64,000 nt of DNA from the NCBI RefSeq assembly GCF_030409055.1, contig NZ_CP116619.1, positions 5,161,969 to 5,225,968 of the forward strand. Reading direction: 5' to 3'. The stretch comes from Trichocoleus desertorum NBK24 (lineage in GTDB: Bacteria > Cyanobacteriota > Cyanobacteriia > FACHB-46). Below the pieces are notes generated by a model, which saw only the letters and a program-made list of their open reading frames with translations, was not told where the DNA came from and made no database searches. The translations under genes and the position numbers were made by a program. This document shows, in pieces, positions 30,740 to 39,578 of this stretch (the first letter of the stretch is position 1; every line of letters begins with the position of its first letter).

Positions 30740-33721
30740 CTATTCCAGATTCCAAGCCGTGTAAAAAGCAGCATAAGGTAATCGTTGGGCACAATGCCAA
30801 AGCAGTTTGTAGCACTCCTGGGCTTGAGAAGAAGGCTTTTCCTTGGGTTTGTCCTGGGACAGGTCTGTCTGAGTTGCAGAGCCAAAACGTTTCAGAGTAG
30901 AAACAATCATTGCTAACTGTTCTTGCAGGAGAATCTCCCTTAAGTCCTCACTGGTACGGCGGTAGAGAGTCGTGGAGTGTGGAGACTGCAAAAGTTGCAG
31001 CAATACCTCAACTGCTTGCGGATGTCCCGGCTGTAGATGTCCCAATTGACACGCTAGCCGCCGCTGGGTAGAAGCATCTGTCGCCGTTGCCAAACGCTGT
31101 TCTAAAGACGCGATCGCTTGAACTGGATCTCGTCGGACTTGAGTTTTGGCGTTTCGGGACGGTTTGAGAAAAGGTGTAGGTTTTTGATTCGCTTGAATGA
31201 ATTGGGTGGCGATCGCATTCCCTGGATCTAGCTGCAATAAATTCTCTGCTGCTTGCAGACGTAAAGCCTTGTCCACAGGTGATTCGATCAGGTTGATTAA
31301 AGTGGTGGAGGCGATCGCATTGTCTGAATCGATTTTACCGAGAGCGTAAGCAGCTTTCCGGCGCAGCGTATTTTGTTGGGTCGTGGCAATGAGTTCTGTC
31401 AGGGTGGTGATCGCCAACCCATTACCAGGGTCAATTTTGCCTAAGCCCTCACTAATTTGTAGCCGCAACGGTTCACTCTGTAGCGTTTGGAGGAGCTGTG
31501 TCATGGCTGCGATCGCTACTGAATTCCTCGGATCAAACGTTTTGCCCAAGCTATAGGCAGCATTCCAACGGGCAAAGAAATGGGAGGTAGATTGAATAAA
31601 TTGTTCTAGAGCCGCGATCGCTTGAGGGCGATCGGTTTGTAGTAGGGCTACTCTTGCTCCCTCTTGCACGGGGAATGGATAGCATTGCCAAGTTTGCTGC
31701 TGAGGGTCAAACTCACCAAACCGCCAGCGCAGTAACTGAGCCAAGATGGACTCTGCATCAGCATATTCAGGAAACTCTGCCAAACCTGCGGCTGCAAGAA
31801 AATAAGCTTGATAGTAATAGAACCCGCCACAGCCATCCTCCCACGCAGTTAAGGTTTGGAGAAAAACGGTTTTCTCTGTAGCGGCTATATCGGAGCGTCC
31901 TAACCACAACAAGATCACCTCTCGCCACTGAGAGGCAAAGACGAGTGGAGATGCCTCTAGCTCTACCGTTGAGCTTGGAGTAGTTGCAGGGAAAAAGCAA
32001 TGCCAATCCGCGATCGCTTGCGCGGCAAAATACTCCTGAAACGTAGGGTGATAAAAGGCATAGACCTTTTCTCCAGATGCAGTACAGATTCCCACTTGAT
32101 TCAGCCAGCCTAAATTGAGAGCTAGATCTAGCAATTCTGGGGATTGCTCTCTAAAAACTTGCTGCACAAACGACTGGGGCAATCGGAACTTAGTCTTTGC
32201 TTGAGCTAATCCCTGCAAAGCCAGATGTTCCAAGGCTTGATTTAGTTGCCAGCGTTGAGCCAAAGTCGTGGGAAAGCGATCTTGCTTCCACTCGTAGATG
32301 GTTTCGACAAACTGTTGATACAGCGCCGCTTTCGAGTGAGGCAGAGTTCCTTGGCTGAGTGACCAAGCTCGACAGAGCAAAGCCAACCGCAATGGATTTT
32401 TCACTACATCCTTAATCCGTCGCCGCTCCAGCTTATCGAGTTCTGCCTGCAAGCGATCGCCTAATGTCGGGTGTTGATGGAACCAGCCCTGGATAAATTG
32501 TCCTACCTGATCTCCACTTGCAGCATCTCCATGACTAAACGTGAGATTCCGATAGGTGGTAAAGGTTTCTAGCGCGTTTTTGCCACTATCCCAAACATTG
32601 AGGCGACAGGTAAGAATTACGTGGGCATCAGCTACCCAACCGCGCAACTGCTTCGCGATCGCCGCCAAAGCAGAACTCGCCTCCGTTGCCATCTCATCCA
32701 CCGCATCCAGTAGCAGCCACACTCGCCCTTGATTGAACTGCGCTCCCAAGGCTTCTTGTAACTCGGTTGAAACCGTAACTTTGTGAGTTGCCGCTTTCAA
32801 CCAATCTTGGAGTAGATACTGCTCTAGGCTAGCTCCCTGCAAATCTGCCAAAGAGATCCAAATTGGCAAAGCTTGTTGTTCCAGCAACCAACTGGCGATC
32901 TTTTGTAATAGTGTGGTTTTGCCTGCTCCCGGTTCTCCGGCGATCGCAATCCGCTTCGTTAATCCGGGCTGCTGCAACTGTTCTAGAAACTGCTTTAGAG
33001 CAAATTGAACCGTCTCTCCCTCCTCTGCCTCATATAATTTCGAGCCTTGATCTGCTCTCACCTCTGTGTCTCGCCGCTCCTGTTGTTTGCGCTCCACCAA
33101 TCCTAAAGGCACATAAACTTCATCCAACTCAAACGCAACGCCATCTCCTACCGTGAGCGGATTAGTCGTCAATCGTTGATACTGCTGCGCCTCTAAAACT
33201 TCTCGACACCACTGCCACCAAATATCCGGGTTGAGCGAATCATCTACTTCTACAACTGTTGTATTTGTATTTTGAGCACTTGTTTTCTGGGTTGTCTGCT
33301 GCAACTTTTGAGACCGCTGAGACCGCCGCTGCTCCCACTCCGCCTCAAACCGCTGCAAGTTGGCTTTGCGATCGCGCCGAGGATGCCAGAGCTTCAAGGT
33401 GAAATGCCAAGTCTCCGATCCACCCCGATTGGGGCGATTATCCTCCAGCAGCTCTAGAAAATCCTCCAACCGTCGCAACGCTTCCTTAATCTGTTCTCCG
33501 GTTAAAGGAGCAGTCGCAATCTTGGTTAAAGCCTCCAAAAACCGCACCTTCGTCCGTACCACCAATCGCTGTTCCGTCTGCCAATGCACCTGAATCTGCG
33601 ATCGCAACCCATCCAAAGCGACTTCATCATAGTCCAACTCATCATTGGCGTAATCCAACAACACCGCCAACAACTGCTGCGATCGCTTTTTTACTTCCGG
33701 GCCATAACTCAGACGTGCCAT
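30740..33721 (-). CDS. NACHT NTPase with C-terminal HEAT-like repeats
   Basis: A 993-residue STAND-type NTPase. An unassigned helical N-terminal region of about 250 residues is followed by Walker A GEPGAGKTTL (from residue 262) and Walker B VWLLLDAVDEM, a winged-helix segment ending HPTFQEYFAAQAI (about 565), and HEAT-like repeats at about 720-880 (LGKIDPGN, LGKIDSDN, LLQLDPGN). NACHT proteins are signalling switches, several bacterial ones being antiphage sensors. No separate effector gene is adjacent, so the N-terminus is the candidate effector. It is near mobile-element debris, which fits an accessory role. The defence role is inference. Confidence 0.88.
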   Translation of the reverse strand: MARLSYGPEVKKRSQQLLAVLLDYANDELDYDEVALDGLRSQIQVHWQTEQRLVVRTKVRFLEALTKIATAPLTGEQIKEALRRLEDFLELLEDNRPNRGGSETWHFTLKLWHPRRDRKANLQRFEAEWEQRRSQRSQKLQQTTQKTSAQNTNTTVVEVDDSLNPDIWWQWCREVLEAQQYQRLTTNPLTVGDGVAFELDEVYVPLGLVERKQQERRDTEVRADQGSKLYEAEEGETVQFALKQFLEQLQQPGLTKRIAIAGEPGAGKTTLLQKIASWLLEQQALPIWISLADLQGASLEQYLLQDWLKAATHKVTVSTELQEALGAQFNQGRVWLLLDAVDEMATEASSALAAIAKQLRGWVADAHVILTCRLNVWDSGKNALETFTTYRNLTFSHGDAASGDQVGQFIQGWFHQHPTLGDRLQAELDKLERRRIKDVVKNPLRLALLCRAWSLSQGTLPHSKAALYQQFVETIYEWKQDRFPTTLAQRWQLNQALEHLALQGLAQAKTKFRLPQSFVQQVFREQSPELLDLALNLGWLNQVGICTASGEKVYAFYHPTFQEYFAAQAIADWHCFFPATTPSSTVELEASPLVFASQWREVILLWLGRSDIAATEKTVFLQTLTAWEDGCGGFYYYQAYFLAAAGLAEFPEYADAESILAQLLRWRFGEFDPQQQTWQCYPFPVQEGARVALLQTDRPQAIAALEQFIQSTSHFFARWNAAYSLGKTFDPRNSVAIAAMTQLLQTLQSEPLRLQISEGLGKIDPGNGLAITTLTELIATTQQNTLRRKAAYALGKIDSDNAIASTTLINLIESPVDKALRLQAAENLLQLDPGNAIATQFIQANQKPTPFLKPSRNAKTQVRRDPVQAIASLEQRLATATDASTQRRLACQLGHLQPGHPQAVEVLLQLLQSPHSTTLYRRTSEDLREILLQEQLAMIVSTLKRFGSATQTDLSQDKPKEKPSSQAQECYKLLWHCAQRLPYAAFYTAWNLE

Positions 33722-36252: not shown

Positions 36253-36486
36253 CTAGCTCGCAAGCCGTAAATCAGCGATTATAGGTAATTCAAACAAATT
36301 ATTGCTGAGCAAGCGTTTTGAGAAAAATAAAATTTCTAAATTCTCAATCTCACCAGATGTTGGATTGAATCGAGCAATGATTTCGTCACCAATCTCTTCA
36401 GATTCTTGCTCGGAGTAAGGAGGACATTTATCGATGTACAGAATATCTCCTGCACGATCATATCGAAAAGTTAGCTTTTCTTCCAT
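36253..36486 (-). CDS. DUF2283 protein, candidate antitoxin-like partner
   Basis: 77 residues with the DUF2283 pattern: FRYDRAGDILYI, GDEIIARFNPTSGEIENLEIL and a C-terminal helix. It overlaps the upstream gene by 16 bp, so the two are one transcription unit. The order, small size and overlap resemble a toxin-antitoxin pair, but that role is inference. Confidence 0.78.
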   Translation of the reverse strand: MEEKLTFRYDRAGDILYIDKCPPYSEQESEEIGDEIIARFNPTSGEIENLEILFFSKRLLSNNLFELPIIADLRLAS

Positions 36487-36797
36487 ACCACCTGACCTCC
36501 AGTCAGCTTACGAGCAGTATAAGCTGTCACAATCCAATATCTTGCCGAGCTTGCATCTGTAACAGTAACCACAACGAAGTGTCTTCCTGTTCGGATCGTA
36601 TCAAACCATTTGGAGAATAGTAGAGCATTTTCATCTCGTTCGCTCTGGCGGATCAGATCCGGATCTGCAATCGTGATGCTTAACTGCTCCAAATATTCAG
36701 GCAATGTACCTGGATGTGTCTGAATAATATGCTGCTCTCTTTCGTCTGTTAATTCAACGTCTGATCCTAGATGAGGACAAGGAAAAAATTGAGTCAT
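36471..36797 (-). CDS. BECR-like (phage-barnase-EndoU-ColicinE5-RelE-type) small protein
   Basis: 108 residues. The pattern ELTDEREQHIIQTHPGTLPEY, the DPDLIRQSERDENALLF stretch, and VVVTVTDASSARYWIVTAYT.R match small proteins placed in the BECR nuclease fold group. The conserved H.H/R/T positions (H28, H33, R60, T93) could be catalytic. It is encoded just before and overlapping a DUF2283 gene. Nuclease activity is unproven. Confidence 0.65.
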   Translation of the reverse strand: MTQFFPCPHLGSDVELTDEREQHIIQTHPGTLPEYLEQLSITIADPDLIRQSERDENALLFSKWFDTIRTGRHFVVVTVTDASSARYWIVTAYTARKLTGGQVVWKKS

Positions 36798-37172: not shown

Positions 37173-37210
37173 AGCAACGAAGTTAAACCACAAACCCAAC
37201 AACTTTGCAT

Positions 37211-37338
37211 GTGGCGGCTAGCTCAACAGTAGAGCACCAACTTTGTCCGTAAGGGCCGCAGATTGAGGGTTATCGCTTGAAAATCGACTCCCCCTTAATC
37301 GCCGGAGATGCGGGTGCAACCCCCGCGTCGCTACACCA
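37211..37338 (+). ncRNA. YrlA-type Y RNA with tRNA-like module, copy 1
   Basis: The ends pair as an acceptor-like stem, GTGGCGGC (37211-37218) with GTCGCTAC (37327-37334), including G-U pairs. A D-arm GCTC-AACAGTA-GAGC (37221-37235) and a T-arm GCGGG-TGCAACC-CCCGC (37310-37326) follow tRNA spacing; the T-loop keeps T54, C56 and A58. The anticodon arm is replaced by two hairpins: GTCC-GTAA-GGGC (37245-37256) and a long one, GATTGAGGG (37261-37269) with CCCTTAATC (37292-37300). ACCA follows the acceptor (37335-37338). It matches bacterial Y RNAs of the YrlA kind, which bind Rsr/Ro60, and lies upstream of rsr. Confidence 0.82.
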
Positions 37339-37340
37339 AG

Positions 37341-37371
37341 AATAATTCGTAATTCGCAATTTGCAGTTCGT
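37341..37371. repeat. Short repeat, left flank of the four-helix-bundle gene
   Basis: Repeats of AATTCGTAATT-type units. The complementary form (ATTACGAATT) appears at 37777-37810, giving an imperfect inverted pair around the gene. Confidence 0.5.
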
Positions 37372-37373
37372 AA

Positions 37374-37730
37374 TTATTTGTTTTTCAGTTTTTTAGTAGA
37401 GGTGATGAGTATTTTGGTGATTTCTGTTGCTTCTTGCAACAAGGAGTTAAACTTTGCGGTTTCTACCATACCTGATGCAATCAGCACTTCTATCCAATAT
37501 TGAGTTTCCCTGGCTTCTTTCAAAGCTATTTCTAATTTGCTCAAAAAATCTCGATGAGATTGTGCCGACTGAGCCTCATGGACATTTGCACCAATTGAGG
37601 TACCTGATCTCACCAACTGATTAGAAAGCGTTTTGAGTACTCCTGGTTGCTGCTCAAGAAAATGACAGGCTTTGATAATTCTGATAGCAAATTGTTTCGT
37701 TCGACTCGTAATTGAGACTTGCTCTTCCAT
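37374..37730 (-). CDS. Four-helix-bundle (23S rRNA intervening-sequence type) protein
   Basis: 118 residues matching the S23/IVP four-helix-bundle family: TKQFAIRIIKACHFL, LSNQLVRSGTSIGANVHEA, SHRDFLSKLEIALKEARETQYWIEVL and a last helix. I start at 37730 (MEEQVSIT), where GGAGG lies just upstream; the frame reaches 37751. These proteins occur inside rRNA intervening sequences, beside diversity-generating retroelements and as free genes; their role is poorly known. Here the gene lies between two tRNA-like Y RNAs, on the opposite strand, flanked by inverted short repeats. Confidence 0.85.
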   Translation of the reverse strand: MEEQVSITSRTKQFAIRIIKACHFLEQQPGVLKTLSNQLVRSGTSIGANVHEAQSAQSHRDFLSKLEIALKEARETQYWIEVLIASGMVETAKFNSLLQEATEITKILITSTKKLKNK

Positions 37731-37776
37731 GCCACCTCCGCTCTCAGTCATTCACTATCAAACAATTCCCATCTAG

Positions 37777-37810
37777 CAATTTCGAATTACGAATTCACAA
37801 TTACGAATTT
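37777..37810. repeat. Short repeat, right flank of the four-helix-bundle gene
   Basis: Repeats of ATTACGAATT-type units, inverted relative to 37341-37371. The pair brackets the four-helix-bundle gene and stops just before copy 2 of the tRNA-like RNA. Confidence 0.5.
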
Positions 37811-37813
37811 CAA

Positions 37814-37936
37814 TGGCAGGTCGCTTAACAGTAAAGCACCACTTTTTGCCCTTACGGGCCGCAGATTAAGGGTTATCGCTGTAGACGAAGTCCCCCTTAA
37901 TCGCCGGAGATGCGGGTGCAATTCCCGTCCTGTCAA
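37814..37936 (+). ncRNA. YrlA-type Y RNA with tRNA-like module, copy 2
   Basis: The same architecture as copy 1. Acceptor-like stem TGGCAGG (37814-37820) with CCTGTCA (37929-37935). D-arm GCTT-AACAGTA-AAGC (37823-37837). Hairpin GCCC-TTAC-GGGC (37848-37859). Long hairpin GATTAAGGG (37864-37872) with CCCTTAATC (37894-37902), fully paired. T-arm GCGGG-TGCAATT-CCCGT (37912-37928). No CCA is encoded. It ends about 40 bases before the rsr start, so it may come from the rsr transcript's leader or its own promoter. Confidence 0.82.
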
Positions 37937-37976
37937 TTTCTCAAATTGCCCCATCGGGCCGGAGACGTAGAAGATC

Positions 37977-39578
37977 ATGAACTACAAATTTTTTGTCCAA
38001 AACAAAACTCGTACTCCTCAAAATCAACCCATCCCTGGACGCGAAGAAATGGTTCAGGGACGCTCTGGGGGCTACATGTTCAAAGCGGGGTTGTGGCAAA
38101 ACTTGCGACGTTGCTTGCTGATTGGCACTGCTCAGAGCACTTACTACGCCGGGAAGCAAGAACTGACGAACGAGTTTGTCGATGTCCTAGAGCAGGCGAT
38201 CGCGGAGAATCCGGAGCGAGTTGCGACTGAGATTGTCTATGCTTCGGATGGTCGTGCCATCAACAACAGTGCGCCGATCTTTGCCCTGGTGCTGCTCTCG
38301 ATGGGGGCAGCACCGGAAGCGAAACAAGCCTTTCAAAAAATCTTTCCCAAAGTGGTGCGGACGGCTAGCCATTTCTATGAGTGGCTGAACTACACCAAGT
38401 CAGTGCGGGGATTTGGCAAAATTGTCCAGTCAGCGGGTCAACGTTGGTTATCACGAGAGAACGTCAAAGAATTGGCCTATCAATTGCTGAAATATCAACA
38501 ACGCCAAGGCTTCTCGCATCGAGATGCGTTACGTCTGTTCCACGTCAAGCCTCCGACTGAGGAACATAATCAGTTGTTTCAGTGGGCGACTCAAGGTTGG
38601 GAGACCTTACCTCAAGCGGCTCCCTCAGAGGCTTTGTCACAAATTTGGTGGTACGAGTGGCTGAAGCGACACCCAGAGCAAGCTCAAGAGGCGATCGTGA
38701 AAGGCCGTTTAACTCACGAAATGGCTGCACCTGTCGGCAAAATGGATAAGCAAGCTTGGCAGCTCTCGTTCAATGACATGCCGATTGGAGCCATGTTGCG
38801 AAACTTGGGTTCCCTGACGGAGCTAGGTGTTCTTCGGTTGGATCACCGTAAAAGCTTAGATAAAGTAGAGAGAGTCCTCAACAGTCGAGACCATCTCCGT
38901 AAAGGTCGTATTCATCCGATTGATGTGCTCAAAGCGCTGAAAACTTACCAGTCAGGCGGTAAATTAGGCCGCAGTCAGAAGACTTGGGAACCGATCCCGC
39001 GCATTGTAGACATTTTAGAAAAGGCGTTGGAACTCTCCTTTGATGTGCTGCAACCGACTGGAAAAGTATTTCTCCATGCGATCGATGTCTCTGGCTCTAT
39101 GTCTTACTACAGCGTCAGCTCCATCGGCTTAACCTGTTGCGAGATTGCTACCACAATGGCACTCGCCACGGCTAAAGCTGAGAAGAACTATGTGATTCGA
39201 GGTTTTGCAGAGAATTTTCGAGACCTGAATATCTCTGCTCAGGATTCCTTTAGTTCTGCGATCGCCAAAGCCAATAACCAAAACTTTGGTGGCACTGATG
39301 CCTCGGTCGCTTACGACTGGATGATTCAGCACAAGTTCAAAGCAGATGTAGTTTGCTTCTGGACGGATTGCGAAAGCTGGGCAGGACGACAACACCCTAG
39401 CCAAGCGCTAGCAGAATATCGTCGCAAGGTGAATCCTAACGTGAAGGCGGTGTATGCCACCCTAGTTCCCTACCAAATCTCCCTAGTTGATCCCCAAGAT
39501 CCCCTCTCCTGGGATATGGCAGGCTTTGATCCCAGTGCCCCTCGTCTCATCCAGATGCTAGCAACAGGTGAATTGTAG
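37977..39578 (+). CDS. rsr: Rsr, bacterial Ro60 orthologue (TROVE-vWA)
   Basis: Ro60/Rsr is a ring-shaped RNA-binding protein that holds Y RNAs and misfolded RNAs, and in bacteria helps exonucleases such as PNPase. The 533-residue length equals Ro60. Residues 1-350 form the HEAT-like TROVE ring (MVQGRSGGYMFKAGLWQNLR near the start). The vWA domain has the metal-adhesion site DVSGSMS (D370, S372, S374), GGTDAS (T440) and FWTDCES (D464). Two YrlA-type RNAs lie directly upstream on the same strand, as in known rsr loci. The ribosome site (AGAAG) is weak. Confidence 0.95.
   Translation: MNYKFFVQNKTRTPQNQPIPGREEMVQGRSGGYMFKAGLWQNLRRCLLIGTAQSTYYAGKQELTNEFVDVLEQAIAENPERVATEIVYASDGRAINNSAPIFALVLLSMGAAPEAKQAFQKIFPKVVRTASHFYEWLNYTKSVRGFGKIVQSAGQRWLSRENVKELAYQLLKYQQRQGFSHRDALRLFHVKPPTEEHNQLFQWATQGWETLPQAAPSEALSQIWWYEWLKRHPEQAQEAIVKGRLTHEMAAPVGKMDKQAWQLSFNDMPIGAMLRNLGSLTELGVLRLDHRKSLDKVERVLNSRDHLRKGRIHPIDVLKALKTYQSGGKLGRSQKTWEPIPRIVDILEKALELSFDVLQPTGKVFLHAIDVSGSMSYYSVSSIGLTCCEIATTMALATAKAEKNYVIRGFAENFRDLNISAQDSFSSAIAKANNQNFGGTDASVAYDWMIQHKFKADVVCFWTDCESWAGRQHPSQALAEYRRKVNPNVKAVYATLVPYQISLVDPQDPLSWDMAGFDPSAPRLIQMLATGEL

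Follow-up and report, generated by a model that had tools for sequence, protein, structure and literature searches.

Probable genes for tRNA-like Y RNAs upstream of rsr in Trichocoleus desertorum and other cyanobacteria

Introduction

What is encoded by two tRNA-like segments that lie upstream of rsr, the gene of the bacterial Ro60 orthologue (a protein of RNA quality control), in the cyanobacterium Trichocoleus desertorum NBK24? The segments belong to a stretch of 64,000 nucleotides (contig NZ_CP116619.1, positions 5,161,969 to 5,225,968, forward strand), hereafter the window, and an initial annotation made from the sequence alone had described them as two tandem Y RNAs of the YrlA type. YrlA (Rfam family RF02553) is a tRNA-mimicking bacterial Y RNA of Salmonella, Mycobacterium and phages (PDB 6CU1). 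Y RNAs bind Ro60/Rsr by a stem with a bulged C and gate its cavity; in Deinococcus they tether Rsr to polynucleotide phosphorylase (PNPase) (PMC8394870, PMC4726728, PMC4030889).

The analysis presented here leads us to conclude that both elements very probably encode Rsr-bound Y RNAs with a cyanobacterial architecture, in which a tRNA body with its parts in canonical order carries a Y module in place of the anticodon arm. The acceptor of this architecture has 7–8 base pairs (bp) and is often followed by an encoded CCA; in the Y module, a short stem with flanking CUU and CGA precedes a longer stem and the invariant GGUUAUCG. The argument draws on the structure and its covariation, on a strict association with rsr and on a relation to YrlA by circular permutation.

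Results

Two elements with a tRNA body and a Y module

Where a tRNA has its anticodon arm, both elements have a 4-bp hairpin and, after it, a 9-bp stem. The D-arms, GCUC/GAGC in copy 1 and GCUU/AAGC in copy 2, each enclose AACAGUA, and the T-arms read GCGGG-TGCAACC-CCCGC and GCGGG-TGCAATT-CCCGT, respectively. The hairpin of the Y module is GTCC/GGGC in copy 1 as compared with GCCC/GGGC in copy 2, and the long stem is GATTGAGGG/CCCTTAATC as compared with GATTAAGGG/CCCTTAATC. Both copies fold better than shuffled sequence (z −2.1 and −2.6). A covariance model, R1, built solely from other species (18 units of type II, as defined below, in native order), has exactly two matches in the window, namely copies 1 and 2, whose parts, all on the plus strand, are as follows.

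37210–37338, +: copy 1 (type I), R1 44.0 bits, E 5.9e-9
37210–37218 (UGUGGCGGC) with 37327–37335 (GUCGCUACA), +: acceptor of copy 1
37221–37235, +: D-arm of copy 1
37245–37256, +: Y hairpin of copy 1
37261–37269 with 37292–37300, +: Y strand of copy 1 with its downstream strand
37268–37275, +: invariant GGUUAUCG motif of copy 1, containing UUAUC (invariant alignment columns)
37310–37326, +: T-arm of copy 1
37336–37338, +: encoded CCA of copy 1
37812–37940, +: copy 2 (type I), R1 42.6 bits, E 1.3e-8; tRNA model RF00005 36 bits
37814–37820 with 37929–37935, +: acceptor of copy 2, without CCA
37823–37837, +: D-arm of copy 2
37848–37859, +: Y hairpin of copy 2
37864–37872 with 37894–37902, +: Y strand of copy 2 with its downstream strand
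37871–37878, +: invariant GGUUAUCG motif of copy 2 (invariant alignment columns)
37912–37928, +: T-arm of copy 2

All the stems and loops that the initial annotation had named in its two segments of shared structure upstream of rsr were recovered, the ends lying slightly off the span 37211–37936 given there. Its statement that pairing is kept despite base changes also holds, but the change is truly two-sided in the D-stem alone; it is one-sided in the hairpin (U-G to C-G) and in the long stem (G-U to A-U). Likewise, the view that gene finders miss both copies is correct for ARAGORN, which called neither in the window, but not for the Rfam tRNA model RF00005, which calls copy 2 at 36 bits against a gathering threshold of 29, the single match that the Rfam searches gave.

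Association with rsr across cyanobacteria

The comparison covered rsr loci from cyanobacteria, 111 in all, of which 81 are named records and some come from genomes present twice. The motif [AG]GGTTATCG occurs one to seven times upstream of rsr in 107 of the 111, and a structural parser that demands a 7-bp acceptor, a D-arm and a T-arm around the GGTTATCG motif found a full tRNA body at 272 of 316 such motifs, as compared with 0 of 316 dinucleotide shuffles and 4 of 320 coding controls. Copy number per locus ranges from one to ten, the maximum by model being the ten of Prochloron (L090). In Picosynechococcus sp. PCC 7002 the array is carried on pAQ7. Two copies, which had been thought an uncommon arrangement, are in fact the norm, since at least two motifs are present in 95 of the 111 loci.

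R1 was also scanned over 386 cyanobacterial genomes. Because it matches real tRNAs at 20–52 bits, counting all matches per genome is useless, and a threshold of 60 bits was applied. At this threshold there are 72 matches in 32 of the 386 genomes, all 32 of which contain rsr. Of these matches, 71 are located within 2 kb upstream of rsr and share its strand (Fisher p 6e-39); none was found in the 345 genomes without an rsr match. Among genomes with a near-full-length rsr of 68–79% identity, all 31 others have at least one R1 match above the threshold, and the window genome has its two type I copies at 43–44 bits.

Forms of the RNA and covariation

The units fall into two main forms. In type II (204 distinct units), the strand before GGUUAUCG pairs with an upstream partner, CCUUAUUC, a helix present in 196 of the 204. 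In type I, the rarer form (47 units, including both window copies), the same strand pairs with a downstream partner, CCCUUAAUC, in 44 of 47, with covariation visible; in mixed arrays the distal copy is usually of this type. A third form has no D-arm and carries an additional hairpin ahead of the T-arm; it follows closely after rsr in most Nostocales loci (L050:4645-4759, L039:4588-4755, L085:4659-4775, L092:4958-5100 and others) and was not found in the window. Many of these RNAs end in a T run and possibly double as terminators.

A blind alignment of 36 diverse type II units has 97% of its cells paired and two-sided changes at 24 of 29 pairs. Its covariation score, 0.586, compares with 0.248 for shuffled alignments and 0.12–0.14 for six slid versions, and none of 500 shuffles reached it. 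In the type I alignment, which includes the window copies, 13 of 23 pairs show two-sided changes. The acceptor strands covary within units. Since the parser selects for pairing in the acceptor, D- and T-arms, covariation in these parts is partly biased; the Y module was not used by the parser and is free of this bias, and its helices 3 and 4, the latter being the CUUG/CGA hairpin, covary too. The GGUUAUCG motif is invariant in alignments A2 (36 sequences) and A3 (18 sequences), whose units had been gathered by way of that motif. The near-invariant CUUG...CGA and the invariant UUAUC fit a Y stem (cf. PMC4030889, PMC4726728).

Of 253 units, 227 have an eighth acceptor pair, and in 115 a CCA directly follows the 8-bp acceptor, with or without one discriminator base. 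With two atypical units excluded, CCA is present in 104 of the 156 copies that lie farther from rsr, as compared with 10 of the 95 that stand last before it. None of the 36 host tRNA genes encodes CCA.

In six loci (L008, in the unit near −261, L015, L060, L081, L085 and L086), T-loops are broken by short inserts such as GTACCCTACGGGAAGCAAGCTAC, while the T-loops of neighbouring units are ordinary. A mobile repeat has possibly landed there.

Relation to YrlA

RF02553 has no match in the whole host genome, and in every relative scanned, cyanobacterial or not, it stays below the family cut-off of 69 bits. The order of parts differs as well. In the RF02553 consensus, taken from the way it aligns with a Gordonia phage RNA, a Y strand with CGAAU comes first, followed by the T-arm, a hairpin-closed acceptor, the D-arm and a second Y strand, which contains ACUUG. 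The cyanobacterial RNAs begin with an acceptor strand and the D-arm; next come a Y strand that contains CUUG, a short loop and a Y strand that contains CGA, and the T-arm and the other acceptor strand complete the unit.

Matches of RF02553 that straddle neighbouring units were set aside as evidence for permutation, as neighbouring ordinary tRNAs would give similar ones (there are matches in control genomes, e.g. E. coli). For this reason a pair of models was built: R2 consists of the same 18 sequences as R1, cut in the Y-hairpin loop and rejoined at the acceptor in silico. Applied to rsr loci from Actinobacteria, actinobacterial phages and viral contigs, R2 reaches 74.6, 64.3, 60.4, 60.3, 57.8, 56.7, 48.6, 47.7 and 44.2 bits (best per locus), the top matches being Nonomuraea (74.6 bits) and Gordonia phages (64.3 and 60.4). 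Nearly all of these sites coincide with RF02553 matches of 29–51 bits, and R2 mostly outscores the Rfam model. R1 gives 18–40 bits at the same sites, and 62 where it straddles two tandem YrlA copies. Conversely, at cyanobacterial loci with one motif R1 scores 93–119 bits as compared with about 40–46 for R2; the exception is locus L063, where R2 reaches 96 and further copies without the exact motif adjoin. As R1 wins in cyanobacteria and R2 in actinobacteria and phages, the two families are related by circular permutation.

The two kinds of RNA thus share a T-arm and a D-arm that mimic those of tRNA, an acceptor-like helix, a Y stem with CGA and CUUG, and a position near rsr, and one model finds both once it is permuted. 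They differ in their ends: in YrlA both ends lie in the Y stem and a loop closes the acceptor, whereas in the cyanobacterial RNA the acceptor is open and forms the ends, often with CCA, and it is the Y stem that a hairpin loop closes. The designation as YrlA type was therefore right in that these are tRNA-like Y RNAs partnered with rsr, but they are Y RNAs that are not YrlA in the Rfam sense. Two findings had been named in advance as jointly speaking against that annotation, the absence of a YrlA model match and the absence of compensatory changes in relatives: the first is what we found, whereas compensatory changes are clearly present. That YrlA is a circularly permuted tRNA mimic has already been published on the basis of structure (PMC11472068). 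Within Rfam 15 and the open literature, a scope that leaves the primary YrlA papers outside, no description of the unpermuted, tRNA-ordered form with an open acceptor was found.

rsr and its leader

The host genome (5.46 Mb, one contig) contains a single TROVE gene, rsr.

37977–39578, +: rsr (Ro60 orthologue), TROVE PF05731 and vWA_Ro60 PF25045
37946–37964, +: rsr leader hairpin UUGCCC-CAUC-GGGC-CGGAG, a near copy of the Y hairpin, abutting the ribosome-binding GGAG

Most loci have a Y-hairpin look-alike (UUUUGCCYGNAARGGCYG) that overlaps the ribosome-binding site of rsr; 76 of 99 distinct leaders match a regular expression for this hairpin. The leader hairpin is a possible site of Rsr autoregulation.

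Discussion

The association with rsr, the covariation and the relation to YrlA by permutation make it very probable that the two elements are Y RNA genes. Several observations weigh against this assignment, among them the failure of RF02553 to match anywhere in the host genome. With R1, the window copies reach 43–44 bits, which is the range of ordinary tRNAs; this low score is explained by the copies being of type I and the model of type II, and their probable assignment is based on the Y module and on type I relatives. Moreover, no sigma-70-type promoter beyond chance was found in the region.

How do these RNAs compare with known ones? Like Y RNAs in the broad sense, they are encoded beside the Ro60/Rsr gene and have a conserved stem of the Ro60-binding type, the covarying CUUG/CGA hairpin, elements of which recur in YrlA and in the nematode stem-bulge RNAs (sbRNAs, RF01656). 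They resemble tRNA in having an acceptor, U8, a D-arm and a T-arm in canonical order, and differ from it in the replaced anticodon arm, the eighth acceptor pair and the encoded CCA that the host tRNA genes lack. With transfer-messenger RNA (tmRNA) they have in common tRNA-like ends flanking an insert. ARAGORN found no tmRNA in the window, Rfam matched none in the region, and relatives gave only partial matches of 14–17 bits as compared with a cut-off of 47. A tmRNA and a group I intron in a tRNA were accordingly rejected, no intron family having been matched either.

Among the other explanations, one would have the tRNA bodies serve as decoys for tRNA-attacking nucleases or tRNA-binding factors, diversified to mimic several tRNAs, with Rsr binding being secondary. 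A decoy role has been proposed for Salmonella YrlA (PMC7790460), and in 70 of 253 units the D-arm is identical to that of Asn, Phe, Thr, Arg, Gln, Cys, Leu or Ser tRNAs, among others. Anticodon nucleases, however, would have no target in RNAs without an anticodon loop, and the bodies are no nearer to tRNAs than these are to each other (median distance 12 as compared with 9 among different tRNAs, taking the tRNAs of the window host only, with no exact whole-body match). We regard this explanation as rather unlikely.

The elements could also be leader structures that control rsr purely in cis, as tRNA punctuation or as an Rsr autoregulatory site, rather than stable trans-acting RNAs. This would account for the position of 71 of the 72 strong matches, close upstream of rsr and on its strand, and for the Y-hairpin look-alike at the ribosome-binding site. 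Nevertheless, complete tRNA bodies, 8-bp acceptors, encoded CCA, diversification among as many as ten copies and the occurrence of some copies downstream of rsr point to excised RNAs, and the related YrlA is, according to the literature, a stable Rsr-bound RNA. An exclusively cis-acting role therefore appears improbable.

Still less credible, in our opinion very improbable, is that these are YrlA RNAs of the usual kind, with their true ends in the Y stem and the YrlA domain formed by the T-arm, acceptor and D-arm of neighbouring units. Indeed, several arrays give weak RF02553 matches (26–38 bits, cut-off 69) that reach from the T-arm of a unit into the D-arm of the following one, and R2 matches across unit junctions at up to 98 bits. 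Yet one-motif loci hold full units in native order, as their R1 and R2 scores attest, and the window copies are separated by about 470 bases. The acceptor covaries within units and is followed in its native place by the encoded CCA; furthermore, the Y-hairpin loop measures 4–5 nucleotides, so that the native Y stem is closed. Finally, tRNA pseudogenes, or tRNAs with an intron in the anticodon loop, would be in keeping with the tRNA-like D- and T-arms and with the score of copy 2 above the Rfam tRNA cut-off, but this interpretation is effectively refuted by the association with rsr and the covariation: there is no anticodon arm, ARAGORN finds nothing, no intron family is matched, the insert, whose sequence and structure are kept throughout the phylum, is linked to rsr, and compensatory changes maintain the helices.

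If the elements are Y RNA genes, as we favour, how might their products act? We infer that the RNAs are expressed and bound by Rsr. The CUUG/CGA hairpin would be the Rsr site, the Y stem docking on the outer surface of the Rsr ring. The tRNA-like body may act as an effector or gate domain that brings Rsr ribonucleoproteins to tRNA-recognising enzymes or to an exonuclease such as PNPase, the latter being proposed by analogy with the Rsr/Y RNA/PNPase machine of Deinococcus. The arrays may be co-transcribed with rsr and excised at their tRNA-like ends by tRNA-maturation enzymes; trimming by RNase P and RNase Z is possible because the acceptor is open. The open acceptor with CCA would also predict possible recognition by enzymes acting on tRNA 3′ ends and several adaptors per Rsr. 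The transcript of the Chlorogloeopsis TROVE gene rises strongly with erythromycin (PMC6424891), and TROVE and RtcB genes rise together in a stressed coculture (PMC11423583). These data are compatible with a role in RNA damage or translation stress.

The comparison extends to animal RNAs. The Ro60-type stem, with GGGUUAUC after the 5′ strand and AACUUG in the 3′ strand, has its counterpart in the RF01656 consensus; RNAs of that type end in the Y stem and have no tRNA body. The RF01656 model matches the YrlA of Gordonia phage Cashline (L129:2310-2437) over its full length, at 31.8 bits (E 3.9e-5), below the cut-off of 38, the match running through CGG.CCGGAG, GGUUA and AAC.UG. In sbRNAs UUAUC is both conserved and functional, and it also occurs in vertebrate Y RNAs (PMC4726728). 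The shared elements may reflect one ancient Y module or convergence, and the sequence comparison favours the former; a review denies homology between bacterial and animal Y RNAs for the four vertebrate clades (PMC4726728). The shared UUAUC and CUUG/CGA bear on this question.

It is possible to go further, with a proposal to which we give slightly less than an even chance. Y RNAs would consist of two separable modules joined in at least four ways: as in YrlA, in the cyanobacterial permutation, in strand-swapped form, and in the form without a D-arm downstream of rsr. With tRNA bodies of several types, this would yield arrays of up to ten Rsr adaptors with CCA ends like those of mature tRNA; the Y-hairpin copy at the ribosome-binding site would let Rsr repress itself until enough Y RNA is made, and the Y module (CUUG/CGA and UUAUC) would be common to animal Y RNAs and sbRNAs.

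These RNAs add a large Y RNA family, with up to ten members per locus, which existing tools overlook or report as unusual tRNAs. The existence of tRNA-like Y RNA in both circular permutations suggests that a structured RNA can become permuted by way of tandem duplication, and the rsr leader hairpin allows a direct test of autoregulation by Rsr.

Other features of the locus

The protein gene reported to separate the two copies is real. It encodes a four-helix-bundle protein and lies within inverted repeats of the AATTACGAATT type.

37344–37809: probable inserted cassette between the copies, with the 23S_rRNA_IVP gene (37374–37751, minus strand) within inverted repeats

Since the two copies are only 2–3 bases apart in the relatives L035 and L025, this gene is best seen as an inserted cassette outside the system. 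About 3.5 kb from the RNAs, the window encodes a NACHT NTPase with an EAD4 domain and HEAT repeats (30740–33721, minus strand), of a kind known from bacterial conflict systems. A protein of 108 amino acids (36471–36797, minus strand) has a weak match, below the cut-off, to PBECR2, a RelE/Barnase-like nuclease domain.
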